A DNA stretch of 39,087 nt from a virus. Made by a program: the position numbers and the translations under genes. Below the pieces are notes generated by a model. It did not search any database and was not told the DNA's origin. It saw only the letters and a list, made by a program, of their open reading frames with translations. Each line of letters starts with the position of its first letter. The stretch's first letter is position 1. Positions 2,740 to 39,033 of this stretch are shown piece by piece. The stretch lies in IMG/VR virus record IMGVR_UViG_3300042991_000987, positions 1-39,087 of that record; one strand, written 5' to 3'.

Positions 2740-3291
2740 TTAATTTCCCTTCGTTTCACTCAAGAAGGGTACAACATCCTCTTTCACAGGAACTCCAATA
2801 ATAAGCTTCCAATACGGTTTAAATCCACCAATTGTTTTTTTGGTTTCATCTGTTACATTATTGGCACTTTCAACTTCATAATATCTGTTTTTTTGTCCAC
2901 TCATGTTGTATTCAACAATATCGCCACGGTCAATTTCAACCTGTTTTTCTTCCAATTCTTTAAGATATATACCAAACCTAATATTGCCAGCATCGTCACG
3001 AGCAATACCACCCGGATTTCCACCATAATTTTCCTGCTTACCATCTTCGACAGTAACCATTACCCTAAGTCTGACAGGTGCGAAGAATTTTTTATCCTTA
3101 GATTTAGTTTGTCCATATAATGCATGCGATTTCGTTTCAAGTATATTTATCTTATGTAAGACAACTTCCTGTGCATTGTCAGTATCAAGATAATTTCTAC
3201 CATACATTACATCCAAATCAAAAGAATTGTCTGTCATAAACATGCCCATTCTTTGATTTTCAAGGTCAATTATTTGTTTTTTCTTTTTCAT
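2740..3291 (-). CDS. Putative neck / head-completion protein (possibly gp14-like)
   Basis: 183 aa, no hydrophobic segments. Central part FAPVRLRVMVTVEDGKQENYG and GDIVEYNMSGQKNRYYEVES look like beta-rich phage connector domains; GDIVEYN...RYYEV resembles the C-terminal part of T4 gp14-type neck proteins, but the similarity I can see by eye is weak. The gene follows a gp13-like neck gene and a tagged kinase in the same leftward operon, overlapping the kinase stop by one base. This parallels the T4 13-14 pair. Otherwise a virion protein of unknown role. Confidence 0.45.
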   Translation of the reverse strand: MKKKKQIIDLENQRMGMFMTDNSFDLDVMYGRNYLDTDNAQEVVLHKINILETKSHALYGQTKSKDKKFFAPVRLRVMVTVEDGKQENYGGNPGGIARDDAGNIRFGIYLKELEEKQVEIDRGDIVEYNMSGQKNRYYEVESANNVTDETKKTIGGFKPYWKLIIGVPVKEDVVPFLSETKGN

Positions 3292-4127
3292 TAATCAATT
3301 ATTTTAAAACCATCAAGTTCAATAGAATTCATATCATCAACAAAACTTCTATGCTGTTTGTCAATTGCCCAATCAGGTACATTTGATCTGTCAACACCAG
3401 CCTCAATATCTTTTTTAACTCTTTGTTTCGCAACTTCTGGATCAACACTAAATACTTTAGCAAAACCATCAAACGGTTTGTCAACATGAACCTTCATGTA
3501 ATCCATTAATGATTTTCTATCTCTGGATTTAATGTTGGTTGCATCAAAAATTACATTTTTACCAGCATTCAATGCATCAGCGACTCTCTTATGCGCTATT
3601 TCAAACACTAATGCGTTTTTTGATTGATCTGAGACACTTCCGGTTAACTCCCTACGAATGTCATCAGGTGAAATAATAACTGTGTTAGAATTAATCTGTG
3701 ACTTAATCCACGTGGATTTACCACTACCTGAAATACCAATAGGAAGAATTAACTTTGGTTTATTTTTAATTTCCTCATTTACTATCTCATTTGGTGGAAA
3801 CTTATCTTCATGTTGAATTCTCCAGTTAAACAATTTCTGAATACCTTTACTATTTACAACACCTATTTTTTCATCAACACTAATATTTCTTTTAATTAAA
3901 TCTTTTGCCACATCTAAAGTAAATTTTAATACTTTAGGGTCGCTGTATTTAACTTGATAATGACATTCTCCAAATAATTTATTATCACCACCGCTTAATT
4001 GCGTAATAAAACACTTTCCACCGTGACCAATTCTAAATATTGCCCATGAATTATCTTCGGGTGGCTGAAAATCAGGATTAACCCTCTCCATCATTTCAAA
4101 AAGTCGTTGTCTATTATCTTTTTTCAT
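3291..4127 (-). CDS. Tagged P-loop kinase (polynucleotide-kinase-like)
   Basis: 278 aa from the ATG at 4127; an in-frame TTG at 4139 is less likely because 4127 gives the tag at the N-terminus and sits one base after the gp13-like stop. Residues 1-20 (MKKDNRQRLFEMMERVNPDF) are the shared N-terminal tag. The C-terminal ~150 residues are a P-loop kinase domain: Walker A GISGSGKST (131-139), SPDDIRRE (153-160) and FDATNIKSRDR (194-204). This order is that of the T4 PseT kinase domain and related AAA_33 kinases, which phosphorylate 5'-OH ends of nucleic acids. Residues 25-115 form an uncharacterised middle domain. Its place between neck genes, with late transcription, suggests a virion-carried enzyme. 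Confidence 0.8.
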   Translation of the reverse strand: MKKDNRQRLFEMMERVNPDFQPPEDNSWAIFRIGHGGKCFITQLSGGDNKLFGECHYQVKYSDPKVLKFTLDVAKDLIKRNISVDEKIGVVNSKGIQKLFNWRIQHEDKFPPNEIVNEEIKNKPKLILPIGISGSGKSTWIKSQINSNTVIISPDDIRRELTGSVSDQSKNALVFEIAHKRVADALNAGKNVIFDATNIKSRDRKSLMDYMKVHVDKPFDGFAKVFSVDPEVAKQRVKKDIEAGVDRSNVPDWAIDKQHRSFVDDMNSIELDGFKIID

Positions 4128-5260: not shown

Positions 5261-5941
5261 TTAACCTCTACTTAGTGCTTTTTCACCAAAATATACATAT
5301 TTGAATTCATTTGGTTGTAGCAAATAACCACCTGCTGCAAGTTCGTATATTCTACTAACAATTAATTTTCTTGTTGGAAATGCTTCAGCCGATGTATCTC
5401 TTTGTGGTGGAAAGAATTGTTTAATTTCTTCGAAATCAGTTACTTTATAATTTGCAGGGTCTTTCAATCCTTCAAGTCCAGCATTAATATCATAAACAGC
5501 ATATGTTGATTTACCAAAACCTAATGGCAATATTGTGAAATAATCACCTTCAGGACCGGATTCAACAAATTTATACCTCTCATTTTTTACCAGTGAAGTA
5601 TTTCTTTCTGCTGGTGTCCAATTAGGATCAAGTTTTTTCATTTTATCAGCATATGACTGACCGTAATTGAATGAATACCAACTACTTTTGAAAATAATTG
5701 AATGATTGAAATCTCTACTGAACATTGGATTGTCAGGAGTTCCCCCACCACCCATAGTTTTATTAATTTTTACTGGTGCACAATAATATACTCTTGCTGC
5801 ACTACCTGCTTGTGGATCAGTCTCAAGCAAATCAAAGAAACCTTGAACACTTATTGGCTGTTTTGCTTCATTAAAATAACTTTCGTTTATTTCTTTAGAA
5901 ACCATTTCTAAAAAGTCTGATTTTGTGAGTTTTGTTTTCAT
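5261..5941 (-). CDS. Tagged virion protein candidate, 226 aa
   Basis: No known domain. I chose the ATG at 5941 rather than the upstream 6028 because the late promoter box (5959-5967) lies inside the longer version, 17 bases before this ATG. The N-terminus MKTKLTKSDFLEMVSKEINE is a divergent form of the shared tag and ends in Ile-Asn-Glu before Ser; a second candidate site YFNE before Ala follows five residues later. The rest is soluble and aromatic-rich (YSFNYGQSYADKM, YFTILPLGFGKSTYAVYD). It heads the operon that continues into the neck genes. Confidence 0.7.
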   Translation of the reverse strand: MKTKLTKSDFLEMVSKEINESYFNEAKQPISVQGFFDLLETDPQAGSAARVYYCAPVKINKTMGGGGTPDNPMFSRDFNHSIIFKSSWYSFNYGQSYADKMKKLDPNWTPAERNTSLVKNERYKFVESGPEGDYFTILPLGFGKSTYAVYDINAGLEGLKDPANYKVTDFEEIKQFFPPQRDTSAEAFPTRKLIVSRIYELAAGGYLLQPNEFKYVYFGEKALSRG

Positions 5942-5958
5942 AATTATAATACTTTTAC

Positions 5959-5967
5959 ATAAATACT
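5959..5967 (-). promoter_or_regulatory. Late-type promoter box for the neck operon
   Basis: Minus-strand AGTATTTAT followed by GTAAAA, 17 bases before the ATG at 5941. It fixes the start of that gene. Confidence 0.7.
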
Positions 5968-5987
5968 TAAATGTTTTTTTAAAAAGA

Positions 5988-6018
5988 TTGACTGTCTTAT
6001 ATTTTTGATATATATTTG
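5988..6018 (+). promoter_or_regulatory. Bacteroidota-type promoter for the helicase operon
   Basis: TTG at 5988-5990, 20-base spacer, TATATTTG at 6011-6018, an exact TAnnTTTG -7 element. The ATG at 6040 follows 21 bases later. It points away from the late box at 5959, so two promoter types diverge here. Confidence 0.75.
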
Positions 6019-6039
6019 TGAAAATCAATATAGACGATT

Positions 6040-8589: not shown

Positions 8590-10302
8590 TTACTGTAAGT
8601 CACCAATTCCGAAAGTCTGAAGACCATCGCAGAATATTCTACCAAAGTAACGGTTAAGAACCATTTTCTTTGCATAACGAGTCATGATACCACGAATCGG
8701 TGTGAAATCGAATGGGTTATACATAACCGGGGTCAACTGCATTGGTACATAAGGAGCATAGATGTAACCAGTCTCAAGGATTGATGTACCTTTATGTCCG
8801 ATAAGTACGGTATTTGCAGGTGCGTATGGGTCACGGTAAACGATGTAACGTCCACTAAGTGTTCCGATTTTTTCGATACCCATGTTATACTTATCCTGTT
8901 CAGGAGCAGCATTTGATACATGGAAATATTCAAGGTCATCGAATACTGCACTTACTTCAGGTGATACAACGATCCAAGAAGCACCACCACGAAGGGTTGA
9001 CTTGTGAATCTGAGCAGAAATCTGGTTGATCTTTGTTACCAAAGTCTGATTCCAGTCCTTCTGTACACCATAATAAGTGTTAGTACCTTTACGGAGACCG
9101 TTATAGTCCCAACGAGCAGTCCAAGCAGCACCACGTCTAAGGTCACGAAGAATTTCACGGTCAATTTCAGCAGCCATTTGTTCTGATAACAAAGCAGTTA
9201 ATTCTGCTTCGGCATCAATGTTATGGAATGCAGAAACGTCCTGTGCTAATTCAGGTGTCCACATAGCACGCATCTTACGAGTTTCAACTGATACAGTTAC
9301 CTGATCAAGTACGAAAGTAACTTCAGCCATCTGTGAATCTTCTTCAAGGTCGCTGTATACTCTGTAATGAGCAGTAAATGTAGTTGCACTTGCGCCAGTT
9401 AATGGTTGATAACCATCAGTACCTGCGTATTGTAAATCAAGGATAAGAATAATCTGTCCAAGATTGTTAACAATTGCCTGTCCGTATTTCTGAACTTTTA
9501 CGTTGAAAGGAACAGCATCAGAATCAGCAACAATACTCTCACTAACATAAGGTACTGGAGCACCCAATGTTAAATCAGCAGTAATTCTCAAACCAGCAAG
9601 GAATGATTCGGTATCCATTGGCACGCCAGCAGGACCTACTAATTTTCCTTCGAAAGTTGTTGAAAAACCACTAAGCATAACACTTACAAATCTGTCAACA
9701 CCGGGAACACCGCTAATAAGTGTTGTTCCACCAGTAAGAACAGTAATCTGACCCTTTGAACGATCAAATAATGAAGCACCTTCTTCGTTATATTCTGTTG
9801 CATAGAATGCATCATACAATGAACGAGTTTCGAAAGGTGTTCTTGCTGAGTAAGCAAGTTGAGCAGCATTTTGATATGCACCGTTAGGTGATGTATGGTC
9901 AACGCCACTTGTATGGCTACCACCTTCATAACCTTGATATGTATCAGTTACAGGAAGATTAGTCCTGAAAGATGCTTTTGGATTGATGTAGTACAATTTA
10001 CCAATCGGTAAGTTAAGTGCCTGTACAGACACGATATCGTTTGCTAAAAGTTTAGCAAATACCCTACGAATTACAGGGAACGCAACAGTTTCAAACTGTC
10101 CTGATGATGTTGAATCTGACGATTCGTTAATCATATATGACAACTGGTTTTCGAATAACTGTGCGCAGTTTTCTTTTACGTTACCTTCCAAACCTTCAAG
10201 AAGACCTATTTTCTCCCAACGATTTGTGGTAATTTCTCTTTGTTCACGGAGTTGTTTTAAACCAATATTACCAACTTCCGCACTTTCCATTAAAAATCCC
10301 AT
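8590..10302 (-). CDS. Major capsid protein, T4 gp23-like
   Basis: 570 aa (T4 gp23 is 521). HK97-fold shell protein. The sequence VIRRVFAKLLANDIVSVQAL near residues 77-96 and the segment containing PELAQDVSAFHNIDAEAEL, with LSEQMAAEIDREILRDLR after it, correspond to gp23 (MVRRAIPNLIAFDICGVQPM ... EL.QDL...H.lDAE.EL..IL..EI..EINRE). In T4 the N-terminal 65 residues are removed at LTE/A by gp21; here MINE60/S61 occupies the matching place, immediately before a Ser/Thr-rich stretch. It is co-oriented with scaffold and protease in the T4 order 21-22-23. No late box lies in the 19-base gap to the scaffold gene, so it is probably read from the 12090 promoter. Confidence 0.93.
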   Translation of the reverse strand: MGFLMESAEVGNIGLKQLREQREITTNRWEKIGLLEGLEGNVKENCAQLFENQLSYMINESSDSTSSGQFETVAFPVIRRVFAKLLANDIVSVQALNLPIGKLYYINPKASFRTNLPVTDTYQGYEGGSHTSGVDHTSPNGAYQNAAQLAYSARTPFETRSLYDAFYATEYNEEGASLFDRSKGQITVLTGGTTLISGVPGVDRFVSVMLSGFSTTFEGKLVGPAGVPMDTESFLAGLRITADLTLGAPVPYVSESIVADSDAVPFNVKVQKYGQAIVNNLGQIILILDLQYAGTDGYQPLTGASATTFTAHYRVYSDLEEDSQMAEVTFVLDQVTVSVETRKMRAMWTPELAQDVSAFHNIDAEAELTALLSEQMAAEIDREILRDLRRGAAWTARWDYNGLRKGTNTYYGVQKDWNQTLVTKINQISAQIHKSTLRGGASWIVVSPEVSAVFDDLEYFHVSNAAPEQDKYNMGIEKIGTLSGRYIVYRDPYAPANTVLIGHKGTSILETGYIYAPYVPMQLTPVMYNPFDFTPIRGIMTRYAKKMVLNRYFGRIFCDGLQTFGIGDLQ

Positions 10303-12183: not shown

Positions 12184-12909
12184 TTACAATAAGAATCGAT
12201 CTAATGCTTTTACGATCTTAATTTCATCTTCTTTAAGCATTATACCATTATTACTTATATGATTTTCATCAAATCCAATATTACTTGATTTATCTGGGAA
12301 TAAATATGCACCGGGCGTACTTGGTGTTGCAACTAAGTCAAAACCAATTAATTCAAAGTCGTTTTGCACAAGGTTTTCACCATTAACTTCTTTAAGTGTA
12401 CCAACACCACGTGATGAAATACCTAATTTAATTTTGTTCTGCAGATATAAAACAATTTTATCTCCAACAACCGATGCTATACCATATTTAATATATCCCG
12501 GAGATACTATTATTTTTAATTGTCCATATAATACATTTTCTTGTTCACCTTTTCCCCACCACATTTTCACAATCTTATGTGAAATATTTTGTAACGAAAT
12601 TATTGATGATTCTGGATGGTCTGCTTCTGATACTGCACTGTCAGTGCTTATTAATTCCTGATATGTTTGAACCTGTGGAATTAAAACATCTTTAGGATAG
12701 ATACGACCATTTTTGTTTTTAACACCCCATTTCTGTAAAATACAATTTATTAAAACGGGTTGATCCCACTTTAATTCAAATGCTTCGGTAAGAAAAGTGG
12801 GATTTAACTCACTACTAATAAATCCAGCATCACTTTCGATTAATATTCCAAATCCTGTTTGACCCGCTTGCAATATTTTGCCTTCGTTTAACCTTAATAT
12901 ATTGCTCAT
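12184..12909 (-). CDS. Prohead maturation protease, T4 gp21-like
   Basis: 241 aa serine protease of the prohead-protease family (T4 gp21, S77). Landmarks: KNGRIYPKDVL (67-76), ADHPE with catalytic His98, ISHKIVKMWW (109-118), GISSRGVGTLK with catalytic Ser165 or 166, and VQNDFELIGFDLVATPSTPGAYLF (181-204), where gp21 has QDDFxLxxxDIVADPSAPxA. It cleaves capsid, scaffold and internal proteins at Leu/Ile-x-Glu sites inside the prohead. Its own N-terminus has RLNE9 before Gly10, a plausible self-processing site. Faces the scaffold and capsid genes downstream and has its own late box. Confidence 0.92.
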   Translation of the reverse strand: MSNILRLNEGKILQAGQTGFGILIESDAGFISSELNPTFLTEAFELKWDQPVLINCILQKWGVKNKNGRIYPKDVLIPQVQTYQELISTDSAVSEADHPESSIISLQNISHKIVKMWWGKGEQENVLYGQLKIIVSPGYIKYGIASVVGDKIVLYLQNKIKLGISSRGVGTLKEVNGENLVQNDFELIGFDLVATPSTPGAYLFPDKSSNIGFDENHISNNGIMLKEDEIKIVKALDRFLL

Positions 12910-19221: not shown

Positions 19222-21246
19222 TTAATCAATTACTTCAACACCCTCAATATCCTCAAGATTTATATCATCAATCTCTTTTGTATTTTGCTCAGTGTTAAAA
19301 CTTTTAGTATTACTCAACAATTTATCAATCTCATTAATCATTGCAGTCGCCCTATCATTTAATTCTTTATTGATAGATTCATTTTCTTTAATAACCTGTT
19401 TTTGTTTATTATCTTTTTTACGTTCAGGTTCTTGTGTGCTGCCAAAAACTAATTTTTCAATTTGCCTGTCATATTCTTCATCGGTCAATCTACGCATTTC
19501 TGCTAACGGTGGTAATTCACCACCGCCACCACCTGCTGGGGGCATTGCACCACCACCGCCTACTGGTGGCATTCCACCGCCTCCTGCTGGGGGCATACCT
19601 CCACCTGCGGGTGGCATTCCACCACCTGCTGGGGGCATACCTGCTTCACCACCTGCTGGGGGCATACCTGCTCCGGTTGCACCACTGGCTGGTACACCAA
19701 TTTCTGGTTCGCCAAAACGTTTATCAATATCAGCAAACAATCCAGATTTCTTAATTGAAACTGGTGCATCAGCAAGTTCTTGCATAACAACTTTCTCCAT
19801 TTTCTGTTGTTTCAAGTCTTCAACAATTTCTCTGTCACTCATGTTCCATATCTTACGTTTTGCGTTAGTATGTGACATTGCAGCAATACCTGCTTCAGCA
19901 CGTGTTAGTTCAGTATATGTCTGTGCTTTTTCACGCATCAATTCTGCTTTCAATTGTTCTTGCTGTGTTGATGGATTTGTAAGCAATAATGTAAAGTTAT
20001 TTAAATCCTCACCAGTATAACCCAATAAATATAAATGGATCATTGCCATTTTATTGAGTTCCTGAATCATTGCTTGTTGAATACGATTGATCTTTTTTGA
20101 AAAACGAATATCATATTGTGCCATTGATTTACCAGCACCAGCAGCATCCTGAAAACTCAAAAATGGTTTTGGTATGCCAAGTCCTGTAAATAAATTATCA
20201 CGAAGGTATTCAATATCCTGAATTTGATCAAGATTTGACGCACCCGGTAATGTTTCGATACCTGTCTGTGTATTTGCATTTCTTACTGGTAAGAAATAAT
20301 CCTCATCATTACCAAGTATGTTGAAACGATAGTCGATCTGACCGTCATTTGGTGCTACCTGTGCAATTTTCTTGAACTTGGTTGCAACTCTGTATATGTA
20401 TTCTTCAATATCCTCTTCATCAATATTTCCAACATCAATTTTAAACACTTTCTTTTCACCAGCACGTATAATACGATAGGTAAGCATAGCATCTTCAGCC
20501 ATAACTAACTGCCTGAAAACTCTACGTACTTTATTAAGTACAGATGAACCATATGGTAGATACTTATCATCACCAAGAAGCCTGAAATGTGCAAGTTCAA
20601 ACGTGTTAAACTCGTCACCAGTCATTCTTTCTTTAAATCTAACGGTTGGCTTACCATTTTGTATTCTCTCAAAACGTTCAATCTCATAGTTAACCAATTG
20701 TTTTACATGTGAAATACCTTTTTTACGTTCACCATAAAACAAAACAAAATTATCACCATATTTACAAACGTTTCTTACCCAGAATGGTAAGTTTACGTTA
20801 ACGTTTACAATATCATAGAAAAATTCTTCAAGTAAATATTTAATTCTCTCCTTATTGGAGTAAATATTTAACATTTTACCGTTTATGTCAATTGTTGTTG
20901 CTTCTTCCATGAATAAATCCAAAGCACTTGAAATGATTGGATAATATTCCATACCTTCATAATCAATGTATGCCGGAAGTCTGGCTGCTTCATACTGAAG
21001 TGCTTTTTGAAAACCTCTATCGGTTGTCCTAAAAAATTTATTTTGAAGTTCACGTTTTTGCTGTAACTCCAATCCCTTTCTTTGTATTTCTTCAGGACTA
21101 TTACCTTTAATAATAATCTTAGGTTGCTCCTTTGCTGGGGTACTTTGTGATATTGATGGTTGTGCATCTTGAAATCCAAAACCATCAAGATTTAACATCT
21201 TATTTAGTTGTTGATATATAGTACCTTTATTTTCGTTTTCAGCCAT
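19222..21246 (-). CDS. Portal protein, T4 gp20-like
   Basis: 674 aa (T4 gp20 is 524). Dodecameric vertex channel for DNA packaging. The segment AEDAMLTYRIIRAGEKKVFKIDVGN followed by EEYIYRVATKFKK corresponds to gp20 ([27 protein letters not shown]). Also LPPYIDYEGMEYYPIISSALDLF-type N-terminal helix and QIQDIEYLRDNLFTGLGIPKPFL, with GAGKSMAQYDIRFSKKINRIQ after it, typical of the family. The C-terminal ~150 residues add a low-complexity insert of repeated MPPAGGG units (encoded at about 19515-19680) and a charged tail, absent from T4. Located directly downstream of the terminase, as 17 and 20 are ordered in T4. Confidence 0.92.
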   Translation of the reverse strand: MAENENKGTIYQQLNKMLNLDGFGFQDAQPSISQSTPAKEQPKIIIKGNSPEEIQRKGLELQQKRELQNKFFRTTDRGFQKALQYEAARLPAYIDYEGMEYYPIISSALDLFMEEATTIDINGKMLNIYSNKERIKYLLEEFFYDIVNVNVNLPFWVRNVCKYGDNFVLFYGERKKGISHVKQLVNYEIERFERIQNGKPTVRFKERMTGDEFNTFELAHFRLLGDDKYLPYGSSVLNKVRRVFRQLVMAEDAMLTYRIIRAGEKKVFKIDVGNIDEEDIEEYIYRVATKFKKIAQVAPNDGQIDYRFNILGNDEDYFLPVRNANTQTGIETLPGASNLDQIQDIEYLRDNLFTGLGIPKPFLSFQDAAGAGKSMAQYDIRFSKKINRIQQAMIQELNKMAMIHLYLLGYTGEDLNNFTLLLTNPSTQQEQLKAELMREKAQTYTELTRAEAGIAAMSHTNAKRKIWNMSDREIVEDLKQQKMEKVVMQELADAPVSIKKSGLFADIDKRFGEPEIGVPASGATGAGMPPAGGEAGMPPAGGGMPPAGGGMPPAGGGGMPPVGGGGAMPPAGGGGGELPPLAEMRRLTDEEYDRQIEKLVFGSTQEPERKKDNKQKQVIKENESINKELNDRATAMINEIDKLLSNTKSFNTEQNTKEIDDINLEDIEGVEVID

Positions 21247-27038: not shown

Positions 27039-27287
27039 TTACATTATTTTATAGTTATCGTCAATGATCTTATGTTTTAACAACATTTCATAAACCTTGG
27101 GTGTTATCAGGTTTTTCCTTCTATAGTTATCAATAACAGATTGATTTACTTTCTTATGTGATATATTTTCATTCAATAAAGTCACATTTTTCTGTAAATC
27201 CTCATTAATTGAATTAAAAACCTTTTCGGCTTTTTTTGTTTCAACATATTCGTTCAACTGTTTTTTAGTAAGAATAAATCTTCTCAT
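27039..27287 (-). CDS. Small basic protein rich in LNE/INE triplets
   Basis: 82 aa, helical and basic. It starts MRRFILTKKQLNEYVETKKA and contains QLNE13, SINE29 and LLNE-type triplets, all matching the proposed cleavage motif, then a Lys/Tyr-rich C-terminus. One base separates it from the nucleotidyltransferase gene upstream, so it is co-transcribed. No known family; it could be a packaged internal peptide. Confidence 0.6.
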   Translation of the reverse strand: MRRFILTKKQLNEYVETKKAEKVFNSINEDLQKNVTLLNENISHKKVNQSVIDNYRRKNLITPKVYEMLLKHKIIDDNYKIM

Positions 27288-27288
27288 A

Positions 27289-28110
27289 TTAATAATCTAT
27301 AAATTCTTTAAGACTTAGTTCTTGTGTTAAATAATCGTTTTTGATACCAACCATTTTTTCAAGATAACCAGTATTTCTTAATACTTTAAATACAAGATTC
27401 TCAACAGAAAATTCACCGGATTTATCCAAACCAGTTTGCCTGTATTTTTTTATTTTGTTTTTTATTACTTCATATCTTTTAACAAAATCCTTTTCATCAT
27501 AATCAGTTTCCAAATCATCAATAGCATTCATGAAATCAGCAGATTTTAACTGCACATCAGCAGTATCAATATTGACAATTTTCTTTGTTGGTTTATTAAT
27601 CCAATCATTTTTAAATAAAGAATATGTTCCAGATGCAGTATGTGGTTCAGCACTATCCTGAAAATACATTTCAACATCATGACCCTTCACCTGAATCGGA
27701 AGTTTGTCATTCCAGAGTGTCTTTTTCAATTTAAAAAAGTCACCCACAAATTCTTTATTTTCAGAAACCTGACTGAAATCAAGAATCACATGAACATCCA
27801 GATCAGAATTTTCGTTGTAATTAAAATTTGCCATACTGCCAGTAAGCATAATATCATCAAATTTCAAACCTTCAATGTCCGAAAATTCAATAAATCTTTT
27901 GGCATTCATCAATAACGTTTTTCTCACATCTGGTTTCATTGTCTCATCATCCCATATTAAGGGACATAACGTATCATGCATTTGTATTGATGATACATCA
28001 ACGGCATCCGGTTCAACAACTTCTTTTAACGTATCGGAAATATTATGTTTTCTCCAATACTTGCCAGACCAAAAACGTGGATTTTTTTTATTTTTAACTT
28101 CTTCAACCAT
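27289..28110 (-). CDS. Nucleotidyltransferase-fold protein
   Basis: 273 aa. LTGSMANFNYNENSDLDVHVILD (89-111) is the MNT-type nucleotidyltransferase signature: Gly-Ser, then Asp103 and Asp105 as metal ligands. Similar proteins occur among structural genes of marine T4-like phages. A third acidic ligand may be in KGHDVEMYFQD (about 140-150). The substrate is unknown; relatives modify proteins, RNA or small molecules. N-terminus MVEEVKNKKNPRFWSGKYWR lacks the tag. It overlaps the upstream tagged gene by one base and is part of the same late transcript. Confidence 0.75.
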   Translation of the reverse strand: MVEEVKNKKNPRFWSGKYWRKHNISDTLKEVVEPDAVDVSSIQMHDTLCPLIWDDETMKPDVRKTLLMNAKRFIEFSDIEGLKFDDIMLTGSMANFNYNENSDLDVHVILDFSQVSENKEFVGDFFKLKKTLWNDKLPIQVKGHDVEMYFQDSAEPHTASGTYSLFKNDWINKPTKKIVNIDTADVQLKSADFMNAIDDLETDYDEKDFVKRYEVIKNKIKKYRQTGLDKSGEFSVENLVFKVLRNTGYLEKMVGIKNDYLTQELSLKEFIDY

Positions 28111-28649
28111 TATCCTCTAAAATTTTGAAATATAACATCATTCTCCATGTCTACTGGTTGTCCTTTTGGAACTGAAGTAGGAACTACACGACTCATATCA
28201 TATCCAAACCAACGACCAGACAAACCTTTTAACCATTCCTTTGCTTCTTCCTCAGTATCATACTCCATTGCGTTTGTTGACCAAACATTTTCACGAGTCC
28301 CGGTTACTTCAGCACGATATTTAACAGGAGCACCTTGTGTTTCTAACGGTATTTCTTCATTAAGTTGTTTTGCCATATTTTTTCCAAGCGGGTCTGGCGT
28401 ACCATATGCCTCATTTTCAATACCCTTTTTAAATCTTTTTGCTAACGCCTTACGTGCTGGTGTACAGGTTGCTTTCGTCATTGGTGTGCAATAACCTTTA
28501 TGTTTGGGATTTACGGCATTTTGAATCCATTTATCCTCTTCTTCTTTAAGCATTTCCTTTACAGGTTTATCCACTCTCATTTTGAAATCAGGATTTAATT
28601 TTGCCATATTTTCAAATAAAAGTTTTCTGCTATTAATTGTTTTTTTCAT
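28110..28649 (-). CDS. Tagged virion protein candidate, 179 aa
   Basis: Residues 1-22 (tag variant MKKTINSRKLLFENMAKLNP then DF) match the shared N-terminal tag. Residues 40-75 (KWIQNAVNPKHKGYCTPMTK then a Cys, Ala and Lys-rich part) are a short basic module I recognise from many phage structural genes, often as a DNA- or RNA-proximal segment of unknown role. The C-terminal part has NVWSTNAMEYDTEEEAKEWL and GLSGRWFGYD, a small alpha/beta module. A late box 15 bases upstream sets the start. Confidence 0.7.
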   Translation of the reverse strand: MKKTINSRKLLFENMAKLNPDFKMRVDKPVKEMLKEEEDKWIQNAVNPKHKGYCTPMTKATCTPARKALAKRFKKGIENEAYGTPDPLGKNMAKQLNEEIPLETQGAPVKYRAEVTGTRENVWSTNAMEYDTEEEAKEWLKGLSGRWFGYDMSRVVPTSVPKGQPVDMENDVIFQNFRG

Positions 28650-28673: not shown

Positions 28674-29798
28674 TTAATGGTATAATAGAAATGTTCTTTG
28701 AACATCTTTTCTTTGTGCAGCAATATCACCCTGACCTTTAGGTAGTACAATAACATTATATTTACTTTCATTGCCTTCAGGTATTTTTAATAAATCATCG
28801 TACATTATTAACGTATCAATGTCAACATTAAACTTATCAGATATTCTTTGTTTTAATGTATTAATACTATTTTCATCCTTGGGTATTAATTTGCCACCAA
28901 AATCAGTTACCAAATGTGCTCTATCCCTAACAAATAAATCCTTAAATATGTCAGATGATACAATTTCAGATGTTTTTGCTGTGGCTAAATTAACCTTACT
29001 TTTTTCCTTTTCAGCAGCATCAACGGAAAAATTCAATATAACGTTTGGGTCATTAAGATTATAAATATCACCTATTTTTGTATGTGCATATGAACCAAAA
29101 TTATAACCTTCGTTCTTTAATTCCTTTGTTATTTTTGTTGCAATTTCAAAATATTTTTTTGAAAAGAAATCACCCGCATCGTTCCATCTAAAAAATAATT
29201 TTTTGCCCTTATTTTTCATTGCCAATAATTCTATCTCAGTTTTCAATATCTTTTCAAAATCATCTGGATAATTAAGCAATAAATTTAAAATCCTTGTTTG
29301 TTTTGTAAAAATTGCAGACATTAAAACATATCTGCCACGTCTTGCATAACACACACGTGCACATGCACCAGCACCGGGACATGTATTAATAATATAAAAT
29401 TCTTTATGCTCAATATCATATACCAATCCACGTAATGCTGGAATACCAATATTAAAAGTTATTGAATTATCCGTCCCAGATTTTCCCATTTTTTCATTCT
29501 GACTGATTATCTGTGGTGGATATGCTGTAATATTTTTAATAAATGTATCGACATCAATTTCACCTTTTTCATCAAATGGAATGGCTTTATTATGAACCAA
29601 TAAAGCAGATTTGGTTCTTTCACTTGACGGTAATTCTTGATTAGCAAGAACTTTATTAAAATACTCTTTTAATGCATCAATACTAATACATTCTTTTGAA
29701 ACATCACTAAAAGCACCTTCCCAATCAATTTCATTTAATGACATTCCCGCAACTCTTTCCATCATTTCAAAAAGTCGTTTCCTTGTATCCTTAATCAT
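28674..29798 (-). CDS. Tagged GP88-domain protein
   Basis: 374 aa. The ATG at 29798 is chosen because the late box (29815-29823) overlaps an earlier in-frame ATG at 29816. Residues 1-16 (MIKDTRKRLFEMMERV) are the shared tag and LNE21-23 follows before Ile. The main domain carries NTCPGAGACARVCYARRGRY (138-157), with Cys140, Cys146 and Cys150, the hallmark of the Gene product 88 family first named from mycobacteriophage L5; then FFRWNDAGDFFSKKYFEIA and a long alpha/beta remainder. The biochemical role of GP88 is not established. A tag on a GP88 domain suggests it is packaged in the virion. Confidence 0.8.
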   Translation of the reverse strand: MIKDTRKRLFEMMERVAGMSLNEIDWEGAFSDVSKECISIDALKEYFNKVLANQELPSSERTKSALLVHNKAIPFDEKGEIDVDTFIKNITAYPPQIISQNEKMGKSGTDNSITFNIGIPALRGLVYDIEHKEFYIINTCPGAGACARVCYARRGRYVLMSAIFTKQTRILNLLLNYPDDFEKILKTEIELLAMKNKGKKLFFRWNDAGDFFSKKYFEIATKITKELKNEGYNFGSYAHTKIGDIYNLNDPNVILNFSVDAAEKEKSKVNLATAKTSEIVSSDIFKDLFVRDRAHLVTDFGGKLIPKDENSINTLKQRISDKFNVDIDTLIMYDDLLKIPEGNESKYNVIVLPKGQGDIAAQRKDVQRTFLLYH

Positions 29799-29814
29799 AA
29801 CTAAATCATTTTTC

Positions 29815-29823
29815 ATAAATACT
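29815..29823 (-). promoter_or_regulatory. Late-type promoter box for the GP88-domain gene
   Basis: Minus-strand AGTATTTAT followed by GAAAAA, 16 bases before the ATG at 29798. Divergent from 29845. Confidence 0.65.
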
Positions 29824-31931: not shown

Positions 31932-32531
31932 TTAACAGTATGGCGATTTAGATAATCCCATAAATTTTCTATCGTTACGTTCAACAGGTAATGTATTGTT
32001 AGTTATATAATCCTTACAATATTCCATTTTAAATAACGTTTTAATATTATATGGTGCGTTATTGAACGCAGTGAATTCGATTTGTTCACCATCTATTGTC
32101 CATAAAGTAACTTCAATATTGTCCCAATTAAACGAAGTAAAATACGCTTCACCTTCTTCTGGTCTATCGCTATCTGTTGTGCCACCAAGTCTGGCGGGTG
32201 TGTGATATCCACCCTTACTTATTTCAATTCTTTCCGAATCAAAAATTAATCTTAATTTAACTGGTTCTTTTGCTTGGTCGTATAGATAATCGATATCAAG
32301 ATAATAATCTAATGTAATGTGTGACGCATCCTCAAAATCTTCTTCCCAATCACCACCAACTCTGGCATCAGTTACATTGATCTTTATTTTATTATTTCTT
32401 GCGGTTTTTTTATAATCACCAATACTAAGAAGTGAATCACAAATAAATTGTTTTTGAAAATCTTCATTTCCCAAAAGATTAAACCCAACAATTTCTTCGT
32501 TAATTATTCTAATAAATTGTTTCTTATTCAC
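31932..32531 (-). CDS. Late protein with tag-like N-terminus, GTG start
   Basis: 199 aa. A GTG at 32531 is the only sensible start: it lies 14 bases after the late box at 32546-32554, and the longer frame from 32582 would read through that box. The N-terminus (V/M)NKKQFIRIINEE resembles the tags, with Ile-Asn-Glu at 10-12. The rest is beta-rich and acidic, with IKINVTDARVGGDWEEDFED and FTSFNWDNIEVTLWTIDGEQ. No family recognised. Confidence 0.65.
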   Translation of the reverse strand: MNKKQFIRIINEEIVGFNLLGNEDFQKQFICDSLLSIGDYKKTARNNKIKINVTDARVGGDWEEDFEDASHITLDYYLDIDYLYDQAKEPVKLRLIFDSERIEISKGGYHTPARLGGTTDSDRPEEGEAYFTSFNWDNIEVTLWTIDGEQIEFTAFNNAPYNIKTLFKMEYCKDYITNNTLPVERNDRKFMGLSKSPYC

Positions 32532-32545
32532 TTTAAACTTTTTTA

Positions 32546-32554
32546 ATAAATACT
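32546..32554 (-). promoter_or_regulatory. Late-type promoter box
   Basis: Minus-strand AGTATTTAT followed by TAAAAAA, 14 bases before the GTG at 32531; it decides that start. Confidence 0.7.
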
Positions 32555-32596
32555 TCCCATAATAATAAAAATTTCTGATCACATGTGAGTATTGTC

Positions 32597-32780: not shown

Positions 32781-32789
32781 AGTATTTAT
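32781..32789 (+). promoter_or_regulatory. Late-type promoter box
   Basis: AGTATTTAT followed by TATAAA, 15 bases before the ATG at 32805. Confidence 0.7.
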
Positions 32790-32804
32790 TATAAATCAGT
32801 TGCC

Positions 32805-33119
32805 ATGAAAAAAGAAAATAAAAGAATGCTTTTTGAAATGATGGAAAAAGTAAATCCAGATTTTGAACAACCTAAAGAAGATTTACCAGAACAACAAACA
32901 ACGATTGCAACTACCACAACAGGAAACGCTCAATATGGTGACCCCACATATAAAATGATTGCACCAACATTAAAACAGGTAAATGCACCCGAAGAATTTG
33001 CTCCGGCATTCAGAGGTTGGTTTCAATATTTAGGATATTCACCACAAGCAAACAACATTAATATCGCAAGAGTTAGATCAGATGTTGAAAAAATAATGAA
33101 AGAATTAGGATATAAATAA
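32805..33119 (+). CDS. Tagged small protein, 104 aa
   Basis: Residues 1-20 (MKKENKRMLFEMMEKVNPDF) are the shared tag; Leu-Pro-Glu (27-29) before Gln is a possible processing site. A Gln/Thr-rich linker (30-50) leads to a small helical domain (PEEFAPAFRGWFQYLGYSPQ; VEKIMKELGYK). No known family. Its own late box and terminator-isolated context make it a stand-alone late unit, immediately before the tRNA operon. Confidence 0.7.
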   Translation: MKKENKRMLFEMMEKVNPDFEQPKEDLPEQQTTIATTTTGNAQYGDPTYKMIAPTLKQVNAPEEFAPAFRGWFQYLGYSPQANNINIARVRSDVEKIMKELGYK

Positions 33120-33622: not shown

Positions 33623-33688
33623 TTTAAATAAAAATAGGATTTGGAAATTTTTCAAATCTTCTTTTGTATGTTTCAACTATTTATTTAC

Positions 33689-34096
33689 ATGAAATATACA
33701 AAAATAGTAAAACGTTGTCCCATTTGTGAAAAAGAATTTGAAACGAAATTGGGACACCCTAAAGAAAAAACTGTTTGTTCACATTCTTGTGCAAACACTT
33801 ATTTTCGGTCAGGGTCATCAAATCCTAATTATAAAAATGATGATGAATTAACTGGTATTGTGAAGTATGTTAGAATTTGTTTTCGATATCACCCTAAAAA
33901 GTGTGTTTGTTGCGATGAAACAAATATTGTGGAAGTGCATCATTACGATAACAATAAAGAAAATAATGTACCCGAAAACTTAATACCATTATGTCCAACA
34001 CATCATCAATATTGGCATAGTAAATTTAGACACTTAATTAAGGCAAAAGTGGATAAATATATTGTGCAATTTAAAAAAAATTTTATCGGGGTGTAG
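33689..34096 (+). CDS. HNH homing-type endonuclease with zinc fingers
   Basis: 135 aa from the ATG at 33689; in-frame starts at 33641 (TTG) and 33668 (ATG) are possible. N-terminal zinc finger CPIC (10-13) with CSHSC (30-34). HNH core: CVCC (72-75), VEVHHYDNNKENNVPENLIP (81-100), then LCPTHHQYWH (101-110), with His84/85, Asn97 and the second metal His residues in place. Free-standing HNH genes of this type cut intron- or gene-less alleles and spread themselves. It is inserted between two Pro-His tRNA pairs, and its last codons and stop (TAG at 34094) lie inside the next tRNA gene. Confidence 0.85.
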   Translation: MKYTKIVKRCPICEKEFETKLGHPKEKTVCSHSCANTYFRSGSSNPNYKNDDELTGIVKYVRICFRYHPKKCVCCDETNIVEVHHYDNNKENNVPENLIPLCPTHHQYWHSKFRHLIKAKVDKYIVQFKKNFIGV

Positions 34097-36991: not shown

Positions 36992-37000
36992 ATAAATAGG
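36992..37000 (-). promoter_or_regulatory. Late-type promoter box for the secreted protein
   Basis: Minus-strand CCTATTTAT followed by ATATAG, 21 bases before the ATG at 36970. Confidence 0.55.
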
Positions 37001-37033
37001 CAATATTCATGCCGAAACTTTTAAATTCGGATT

Positions 37034-37042
37034 AGTATTTAT
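37034..37042 (+). promoter_or_regulatory. Late-type promoter box for the four-gene tag cluster
   Basis: AGTATTTAT followed by TATAAAA, 15 bases before the ATG at 37058. No further box occurs before 37601, 38288 or 38669, so these genes form one unit. Confidence 0.7.
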
Positions 37043-37057
37043 TATAAAATTCTTATT

Positions 37058-37588
37058 ATGAAATCAAAAGATGGTAAACAAAGACTTTTTGAAGTCATGC
37101 AGAGAGTTGATAAAACATTTAAACCAAGATTAAATGAAGAAGAAGAACCTGTTTCTTCAGGAGCAACAACTTCCGGTTCAACTAAATCAGAAAAAAGGGG
37201 TTTTCATACAAATATAGAAAAAGATACTGTTGATAATACTAATTTCAGAAAAGTGTTATATACTGGTGAACATCTTCAACTTGTATTAATGTCGTTAAAA
37301 CCTGAAGAAGAAATTGGAATGGAAACACATCCAGATATCGACCAATTTTTCAGATTTGATGCCGGAACTGGTAAAGCCATTATTAATGGTAATGAATATG
37401 AAATAACTGATGGTGATTGTATTATAATACCTGCGGGTTCTGAACACAATATAATTAATACTGGTGAAGAAGAACTAAAAATGTATACAATTTACACACC
37501 ACCTCATCATAAAGAAGGTACATTATTTGCAACAAAAGATGAAGCAGAAGGAAGTGATGAAAAATTTGATGGAAAAACAACAGAATAA
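37058..37588 (+). CDS. Tagged cupin-domain protein
   Basis: 176 aa. Residues 1-21 are a tag (MKSKDGKQRLFEVMQRVDKT then F) and Leu-Asn-Glu (25-27) follows. A Ser/Thr linker leads to a single cupin barrel: METHPDIDQFF (about 88-98) supplies the metal-binding His and acidic positions, GTGKAIINGNEYEITDGDCI and IPAGSEHNIINTG (127-139) form motif 2. Related small cupins bind sugars or metals; the ligand here is unknown. First gene of a row of four tagged genes under one late box. Confidence 0.8.
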   Translation: MKSKDGKQRLFEVMQRVDKTFKPRLNEEEEPVSSGATTSGSTKSEKRGFHTNIEKDTVDNTNFRKVLYTGEHLQLVLMSLKPEEEIGMETHPDIDQFFRFDAGTGKAIINGNEYEITDGDCIIIPAGSEHNIINTGEEELKMYTIYTPPHHKEGTLFATKDEAEGSDEKFDGKTTE

Positions 37589-37600
37589 TATTTTATTATT

Positions 37601-37663
37601 ATGAAAAAAGATAGTAAACAAAGACTTTTCGAAGTCATGACAAGACTTGATAAAACATTCAAA
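37601..37663 (+). repeat. Tag-encoding DNA repeat, copy A
   Basis: The first 63 bases of this gene equal those at 38669-38731 except for one silent change in codon 7 (CAA/CAG); the genes are unrelated after codon ~27. Confidence 0.85.
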
Positions 37664-38257
37664 TCTAAATTAACTGAAGGTGATGCTTTGAAAGAATATG
37701 GCGGTGCTCCTGAATGGGAAGACCCAAGCAATCCTGATAGAGAACATGATAGAATGATATATAAAAAATATGTTCAGAATAAAGAACCAAAAATAATAAC
37801 TTTAAAATATCCGGCAGTTTGTAAAGAAACTGGTAAAAGATTAAACAGAGGTGAACAAGCATTATATTATCCACAGGATAAAAGTTTCTTCTGCTTAGAC
37901 TCCAAACAAGCACAAGAATGGCGTGAAATGAAAGCCGATGACCAAATGGGTGGAGTTTATGAAGAAATTGGTTATAATAATGAACCACGAATGATAAAAT
38001 CTCAATCATCCAGACCACTTTATGTTATCGCAAGAGAAATTTATCAGGATTGGAGACCAGTACATCCATATGCAAAACCATATCTTGAAGCAATGTCATC
38101 ATTATCATCAATTGATGATAATTATATTATGGATTCTGGTAGATCAATTGTTGCATACTTTCTTTCAAACGCAAATACGTGGAAAGGCGAAACAGCAAAA
38201 AGAATTAAAATGGAATTGAAGAAAATGTTAGGACTAAAAGAATTAGAAAGTATTTAA
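37601..38257 (+). CDS. Tagged virion protein candidate, 218 aa
   Basis: Tag MKKDSKQRLFEVMTRLDKTF (1-20) then LTE (24-26) before Gly27, an exact T4-type maturation site. Residues 60-110 form a small domain with one Cys pair-like arrangement (KYPAVCKETGKRLNRGEQAL; FFCLDSKQAQEW). The C-terminal 80 residues are helical (YVIAREIYQDWRPVHPYAKP; GRSIVAYFLSNANTWKGETA) and resemble modules found in other phage structural genes. No function known. 12 bases after the cupin gene. Confidence 0.72.
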   Translation: MKKDSKQRLFEVMTRLDKTFKSKLTEGDALKEYGGAPEWEDPSNPDREHDRMIYKKYVQNKEPKIITLKYPAVCKETGKRLNRGEQALYYPQDKSFFCLDSKQAQEWREMKADDQMGGVYEEIGYNNEPRMIKSQSSRPLYVIAREIYQDWRPVHPYAKPYLEAMSSLSSIDDNYIMDSGRSIVAYFLSNANTWKGETAKRIKMELKKMLGLKELESI

Positions 38258-38287
38258 ATAAAAGAGTAAATAATAAATATTAAAATT

Positions 38288-38647
38288 ATGAAAAAAAACA
38301 GTAAAGATAGTAAGCAATTGCTTTTTGAAATGATGGTAAAATTAAATCCAACATTTAAAACCAATCCTGAACTTCTTAAAGAATGGAACTTTGATAAGAA
38401 AAAGGGTGAAGATAAAGAAGAAGACAAGGAAGAAAAGAAAGAAACTTCTGGAAAGAAGAAATGGAATTTTGAGAAAAAGAGTGATAAGGAAGATGATGAA
38501 ACTAAAGAACATGAAGAATCTGAAACTCCTGAAGAAGAAGAAAAAGAAGACTCTGGCAAGAAAAAATTTAATTTCGAAAAGAAAAAAGAAATAGACGAAG
38601 TTAAACCCAAAATACCAGTTAATGCAATTGCAAAAGTTGGTAAATAA
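38288..38647 (+). CDS. Tagged, highly charged protein, 119 aa
   Basis: Tag variant (MKKNSKDSKQLLFEMMVKLN, then PTF) followed by alternating Lys/Glu blocks. Three similar units recur: KEWNFDKKKG, KKWNFEKKSD and KKFNFEKKKE. Disordered, near-neutral overall with separated charges, like internal head proteins that condense around DNA. No known family. Third in the tag cluster. Confidence 0.68.
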   Translation: MKKNSKDSKQLLFEMMVKLNPTFKTNPELLKEWNFDKKKGEDKEEDKEEKKETSGKKKWNFEKKSDKEDDETKEHEESETPEEEEKEDSGKKKFNFEKKKEIDEVKPKIPVNAIAKVGK

Positions 38648-38668
38648 ATTTTCTAAAAATACCGTACT

Positions 38669-38731
38669 ATGAAAAAAGATAGTAAACAGAGACTTTTCGA
38701 AGTCATGACAAGACTTGATAAAACATTCAAA
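38669..38731 (+). repeat. Tag-encoding DNA repeat, copy B
   Basis: Partner of 37601-37663; 62 of 63 bases identical. Confidence 0.85.
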
Positions 38732-38947
38732 CCTAAATTGAATGAAGACTTTGATGAAGAAAAAGAATTTGTTGTTTCGGAAGATATAAATATTGATGTA
38801 GAAGTGGGTGACACTATTATGATGGGCAAATTTAAAAATTCGCCAACAATAGTAAAGTCAATAGGAAAAGACGAACATGGTATGCCAATTATTAATGGTA
38901 AGAAAGTAGTAACATTTAGAATGGCTACCGAAAAAAATAAGAAATAA
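38669..38947 (+). CDS. Tagged small protein with beta-barrel-like domain, 92 aa
   Basis: Tag MKKDSKQRLFEVMTRLDKTF then LNE (24-26) before Asp. The rest is a compact beta domain: VEVGDTIMMGKFKNSPTIVK and HGMPIINGKKVVTFR, a pattern I recognise as a recurrent small domain in phage genes of unknown role. Last gene of the tag cluster. Confidence 0.72.
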   Translation: MKKDSKQRLFEVMTRLDKTFKPKLNEDFDEEKEFVVSEDINIDVEVGDTIMMGKFKNSPTIVKSIGKDEHGMPIINGKKVVTFRMATEKNKK

Positions 38948-38978
38948 TTTAAATTTTTTTAAAAATAATTGAAAATAA

Positions 38979-39009
38979 TTTGGTATTAATGAAACTTTAT
39001 TTATCTTTG
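38979..39009 (+). promoter_or_regulatory. Bacteroidota-type promoter
   Basis: TTTG at 38979-38982, 19-base spacer, TATCTTTG at 39002-39009: exact consensus, 24 bases before the ATG at 39034. Confidence 0.78.
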
Positions 39010-39033
39010 CAACGTATTTAATAGAAAAAGAAA

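Follow-up and report, generated by a model that had tools for sequence, protein, structure and literature searches.

A clear known parallel to the locus described here is the internal-protein system of phage T4, in which leaders take proteins to the core of the prohead and the protease gp21 cleaves after L/I-x-E, the capsid targeting sequence (CTS) being 10 to 19 residues long (PMC9026906). T4 internal proteins which have been injected block host defences (PMC12373910). At the DNA level, the T4 genes ipII and ipIII are identical in 32 of their first 32 nucleotides and unrelated thereafter. The ip loci of T-even phages are reportedly polymorphic, Repoila et al. being said to have ascribed their shuffling in 1994 to repeats which flank the genes. 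A further arrangement for comparison is provided by Flavobacterium phage immuto, which is among the nearest cultured phages and which, like the phage studied here, is T4-like with a Gp23-type capsid and a prohead core protease. In immuto, unrelated genes share N-terminal leaders of three repeated types (L306, L308), the first in gp003, gp076, gp077 and gp092, the second in gp083 and gp230 and the third in gp080, gp094 and gp095. Two of the three types end, as does the tag described below, in [LI]xE, although the leader sequences differ from it. That immuto has repeated leaders of its own suggests that such an arrangement is probably general in phages of this kind.

The DNA analysed here, hereafter referred to as the window, is a virus record of 39,087 bases. 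Its head module is of the T4 type and comprises a terminase, a portal protein of the T4 gp20 family (19222–21246, minus strand, E 2.8e-63), a major capsid protein of the Gp23 family (8590–10302, minus strand, E 8.9e-73) and a prohead protease of the Peptidase_S77/T4 gp21 family (12184–12909, minus strand, E 8.9e-19), the presumed processor of the tag. The capsid protein is less than 60% identical to that of every phage record, Rhodothermus phage RM378 and Flavobacterium phage immuto being among the best matches, and no DNA relatives of positions 37000–39000 were found among the phage records. Four plus-strand genes which start with a common N-terminal tag form a head-to-tail array with gaps of 12, 30 and 21 nt. 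Its first cassette is a cupin gene (37058–37588) whose tag spans codons 1 to 27, ends in PRLNE and shows 81% DNA identity over 83 nt, while the third (38288–38647) encodes an acidic protein with WNFDKKKG repeats and a tag ending in PELLKE. Genes two and four, designated 37601 and 38669 by their start positions, carry tags of 26 codons each, ending in FKSKLTE (37601–37678) and FKPKLNE (38669–38746), respectively. Outside the array, the window contains four further tagged genes. The one on the plus strand (32805–33119) encodes a small protein with a divergent tag devoid of the LxE end; those on the minus strand encode a kinase-like protein (AAA_33; 3291–4127), a WIQ-AVNP protein with a divergent tag (28110–28649) and a protein of the GP88 family whose tag ends in MSLNE (28674–29816).

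Several other features of the window deserve mention. A AGTATTTATNATAAA-like motif is located shortly 5' of many gene starts (37034–37048, 32781–32795 and minus-strand copies; repeat families D11–D13 and D16) and is perhaps a late promoter. It precedes the first gene of the array, but neither 37601 nor 38669. Promoters of Bacteroidota conform to the consensus TTTG/TAnnTTTG, and a sequence resembling it is present before the last gene (38980–39012), which points to a probable Bacteroidota host. Between 33343 and 34240 a pair of tRNA-Pro and tRNA-His is present twice with an ORF (33641–34096) in between, whose product, judged by eye, resembles HNH-type proteins; three tRNA-Gln follow. A second leader-like type of N-terminus occurs on the minus strand in 5261–6028, 27039–27287 and 31932–32582 (LTKSDFLEMV, LTKKQLNEYV and VNKKQFIRII).

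The tag belongs to a family for which we count 153 genes from 42 non-duplicate virus records in 36 body families, the latter being permissive single-linkage clusters between which distant homology may be missed. Near-duplicate records (G013, G047, G027, G041, G044 and G040) were dropped before counting, and G032, ORFs shorter than 38 aa or with a low tag score, and G048:1770, which has no recognisable core, were left out as well. The records were picked by the pattern KQRLFEVM, so the presence of the tag in 48 of 48 of them is given by construction; as this pattern admits every synonymous codon, the codon test described below is unbiased by it. The consensus of the tag roughly reads M-K-K-x-x-K-Q-R-L-F-E-V-M-x-R-x-D-K-T-F-K-P-K-L-N-E. 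At tag positions 20 to 33, [LI]xE is found in 123 of the 153 genes, compared with 20/151, 22/151 and 16/150 in body windows of equal size. The LxE end prevails in 24 of the 36 body families, is not the majority form in the other 12 and is missing from 30 of the 153 genes; where it is present, the tag measures about 24 to 27 residues up to its glutamate. The sequence LFE at residues 9 to 11 fits LxE as well (150 of 153 genes), which renders the cut site uncertain. As in the CTS of T4 IPI, IPII and IPIII, a short common N-terminal leader which ends in L/I-x-E precedes unrelated bodies in a genome encoding an S77 protease. In contrast to the T4 leaders of 10 to 19 residues, the window leader comprises about 26 residues, is not similar enough in sequence for tblastn to find it in T4, and is attached to many more cargo families, enzymes included. 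When 50,697 phage records were searched with the tag by tblastn, the single match, to a Vibrio phage, had an E value of 10, and a literature search, conducted mostly outside subscription papers, revealed no earlier description of the leader. Consecutive tagged genes on the same strand frequently lie less than 100 nt apart (54 of 81), and in one case (G004:17725-18528; L081) a WNFDKK and a WIQ-AVNP cassette, which are separate genes elsewhere, are joined in one ORF.

If selection on the protein had repeatedly given rise to the tag, its codons would be expected to follow codon usage, which they do not. Val12 is encoded by GTC in 49 of 87 cases, compared with a background of 4.5%; counting one gene per body family, GTC is found in a median of 11 of 21 families, as opposed to 4.5% in the corresponding bodies. 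Likewise, CTT encodes Leu9 in 20 of 36 families (20% in bodies) and TTC encodes Phe20 in 16 of 28 (26% in bodies), while CGT is used for Arg8 in none of 30 families (21% in bodies). Weaker positions include Thr19 (ACA in 10/16 vs 48%) and Asp17 (GAT in 15/21 vs 80%). Rare tag codons common to unrelated bodies indicate shared ancestral tag DNA. Tags and bodies are also incongruent, as the identity of tags correlates only weakly with that of the bodies (Spearman 0.17 for 465 pairs of homologues), and there are cases in which tags 38% alike accompany bodies about 80% alike. G031:59409 is a second hybrid gene. Up to and including EIST, its tag is close to one from another family, with 12/75 differences from G012:7252, whereas the body shares 80% identity with that of G012:6895, whose tag differs at 40/75 positions. 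These observations, together with bodies that elsewhere occur untagged or behind other leaders (see below), bear out the proposal of the sequence-only reading that the tag spreads as a DNA module. The “active” shuffling mechanism which it added is, however, too strong a claim. Tag identity at synonymous sites amounts to 0.60 within records, compared with 0.59 (unrelated bodies) and 0.63 (related bodies) between records; a general homogenisation of tags within a genome was thus not seen, and recent exchange appears to be rare. No sign of a dedicated shuffling mechanism was found, and homologous recombination of the ordinary kind suffices to account for the exchange.

The bodies of 37601 and 38669 are unrelated past the tag, as had been claimed from the letters. 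A blastp comparison of the two yields no match at E<=10, and their predicted folds differ. The model of 37601 (218 aa) contains a tag helix (residues 5–24), a disordered linker (25–36), an alpha/beta part and, predicted with confidence, a helical domain at the C-terminus, the last three making up the body (37679–38257; phrog_13953). The model of 38669 (92 aa), which is of lower confidence (mean pLDDT 69), contains a tag helix (5–16), a disordered stretch (24–36) and a small all-beta part which forms the body (38747–38947). As fold searches gave no match at E<=0.001, the working label “KOW” for the latter remains an impression. Each body has 87 matches in viral contigs, and the 80 retained of these represent 59 distinct relatives of the 37601 body and 68 of the 38669 body, forming separate families. 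Among these 80 of 87, many distinct relatives of both bodies are without any tag. The domain of 37601 occurs untagged even in two records whose other genes bear the tag (L151 in the G010 record and L183 in the G003 record). Other body relatives carry different leaders with L-x-E directly before the body (L146, L149, which is the same protein as L148, L237, L272 and L275), and the occurrence of one body with several leaders, each ending in LxE, may mean that exchange crosses leader classes.

In spite of their unrelated bodies, 37601 and 38669 are identical in 62 of their first 63 bases (37601–37663 and 38669–38731), the sole difference being a silent one in codon 7 (CAA/CAG), just as first noticed. 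Over the first 26 codons 4 of 78 bases differ. The 20 bases 5' of each ATG are dissimilar; the shared DNA begins at the start codon, whereas in T4 it reaches upstream of it. The pair otherwise resembles ipII and ipIII, where two neighbouring genes also possess near-identical leader DNA. With the T-even ip loci it has in common reshuffling cassettes in which one leader precedes variable bodies, but those loci reportedly have flanking repeats, whereas here the DNA in common is confined to the leader as far as seen. It also differs from two copy pairs of immuto which were compared and which are saturated at synonymous sites (10/17 and 9/18) and old. Given the codon usage of the window, the probability of at least 18 of 19 codons being identical by chance is 6e-5. 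Among the 295 same-record pairs in the family, all of which have non-homologous bodies, none but the window pair shows at most 4 differences over the 48-nt core, the next pairs having 6. The genes 20914 and 25807 of G036 were considered as a second recent copy and rejected, as they differ in one core amino acid but in 11 of 48 core bases.

The 3' end of either tag follows the relatives of its own body: at codons 22 to 26, 38669 agrees with two close relatives of its body in 15 of 15 bases, and codons 22 to 24 of 37601 equal those of its body relative G011. (G036:25807 is not counted as a relative of 37601, since it is only about 21% identical in a gapped global alignment.) This suggests tag-to-tag recombination between genes which were already tagged. 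In codons 1 to 21 of 38669, 6 sites depart from both relatives and 5 of these match 37601, while only 2 such sites are found in 198 body bases (Fisher p 0.003 when counted by site and 0.03 when counted by branch). Such a mosaic is what a short exchange between two tags would be expected to leave. The tag of G021, a more distant relative of the 38669 body, has K6 (as AAG), AGA15 and L16 as well; some of the five matches may therefore be ancestral, and the signal of conversion is moderate. The bases 5' of 38669 are unlike those of 37601 and of both relatives, so a third tag outside the fragment could be the donor. DNA similarity to G036 starts one base 5' of the start codon of 38669 and continues to the end of the window, while the L227 record also shares the gene upstream of 38669. 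Thus, what adjoins this cassette has changed, the breakpoint lying at the tag. Taken from the letters alone, the pair had been described as a tag copied recently, as a unit, onto different cargo. Recency holds up, given the rarity of such pairs within records, and recent recombination explains this pair best. A wholesale transfer of the tag to new cargo is not supported, as the near-identity ends at codon 21 and the codons behind it belong with the body relatives.

The LxE end, the gp21-type protease and the parallel to ipII/ipIII lead us to read the tag as a capsid-targeting leader, a likely role which the sequence-only reading had not named. As the best explanation, to which we assign a probability of roughly 0.68, we consider a cleavable, interchangeable leader of the T4 type, the window pair representing one recent tag-to-tag exchange. 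It is founded on sequence identity, the tag family, the enrichment of LxE, the protease family, codon memory and the incongruence of tags and bodies, all of which are observed. The short tag helix (about residues 5 to 20) would bind to the prohead core during head assembly, whereupon the S77 (gp21-type) protease of the phage would cut after L-x-E at residues 24 to 26, and the freed body would stay inside the head and be delivered with the DNA. Since the leaders would be interchangeable, the homology of their DNA would let genes exchange them by ordinary homologous recombination, and whole cassettes may exchange neighbours in the same way. As to 37601 and 38669, one recent event, most likely a short tag-to-tag conversion, would have affected at least codons 6 to 16 and at most about codons 1 to 21.

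The near-identity of the two tags might arise differently. Without any recent copying, protein constraint and shared ancestral codons could render them alike: with codon frequencies taken from other tags, position-specific codons raise the expected identity, and the probability of at least 14 identical codons among 15 informative core codons becomes 2e-3, which is not negligible given the many pairs. Cross-record pairs with unrelated bodies moreover get down to 2/48 differences, and 20 of 10,792 such pairs have at most 4. Not one of the 10,792, however, shows at most 1 difference, nor does any of the 65 among them whose core amino acids are identical, and the second same-record pair in which the core amino acids agree fully has 8/48 differing bases; we thus consider this account quite unlikely. 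About as unlikely to us is that illegitimate recombination pasted the tag as a unit onto an untagged body. The existence of both bodies without tag in other phages, implying gain or loss of tags at some time, and the start of the G036 similarity at the ATG of 38669 would agree with it, but for both genes the nearest relatives of the body already bear a tag, and codons 22 to 26 follow these relatives. Duplication of a whole gene followed by divergence of the body, to which the adjacency of tagged genes in one array might point and which would have overturned the modular reading, is refuted as far as blastp and predicted folds allow, and the separate families of body relatives speak against it too; it is hardly conceivable.

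Other alternatives concern the tag itself. It might target a site other than the capsid, such as a host structure or a compartment made by the phage, which would suit a cargo that includes enzymes (cupin, kinase, GP88) but leaves aside the LxE end, the S77 protease and the T4 parallel; we hold this to be unlikely. That the DNA or RNA of the tag is a conserved functional element in its own right appears very improbable. The rare codons CTT, TTC and GTC form a hairpin, GACTT-TTCG-AAGTC, and none of 21 exact copies of GACTTTTCGAAGTC in 422,841 nt lies outside a tag. Folding is, however, no better than that of shuffled sequences (z 0.02, 0.27 and -0.88), and codon memory extends to Phe20, Arg15 and Leu16 outside the hairpin.

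With regard to the proposed capsid-targeting leader, the sequence of the leader, the breadth of its cargo and the evidence that leader DNA is inherited apart from the cargo appear to be new. It is possible, if doubtful, that the leader doubles as a recombination handle and that arrays of cassettes let the phage swap its set of injected proteins through homologous recombination inside the leader; if so, any body gaining the leader would become virion cargo. As a capsid-targeting signal, the leader would provide a means of listing, from sequence only, candidates for virion-packed and possibly injected proteins of uncultured T4-like phages, among them GP88, a cupin and a P-loop kinase along with many proteins of unknown kind. 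Codon memory indicates that such a signal and its cargo can be passed on independently of each other, a point that lends itself to testing in cultured relatives such as immuto.
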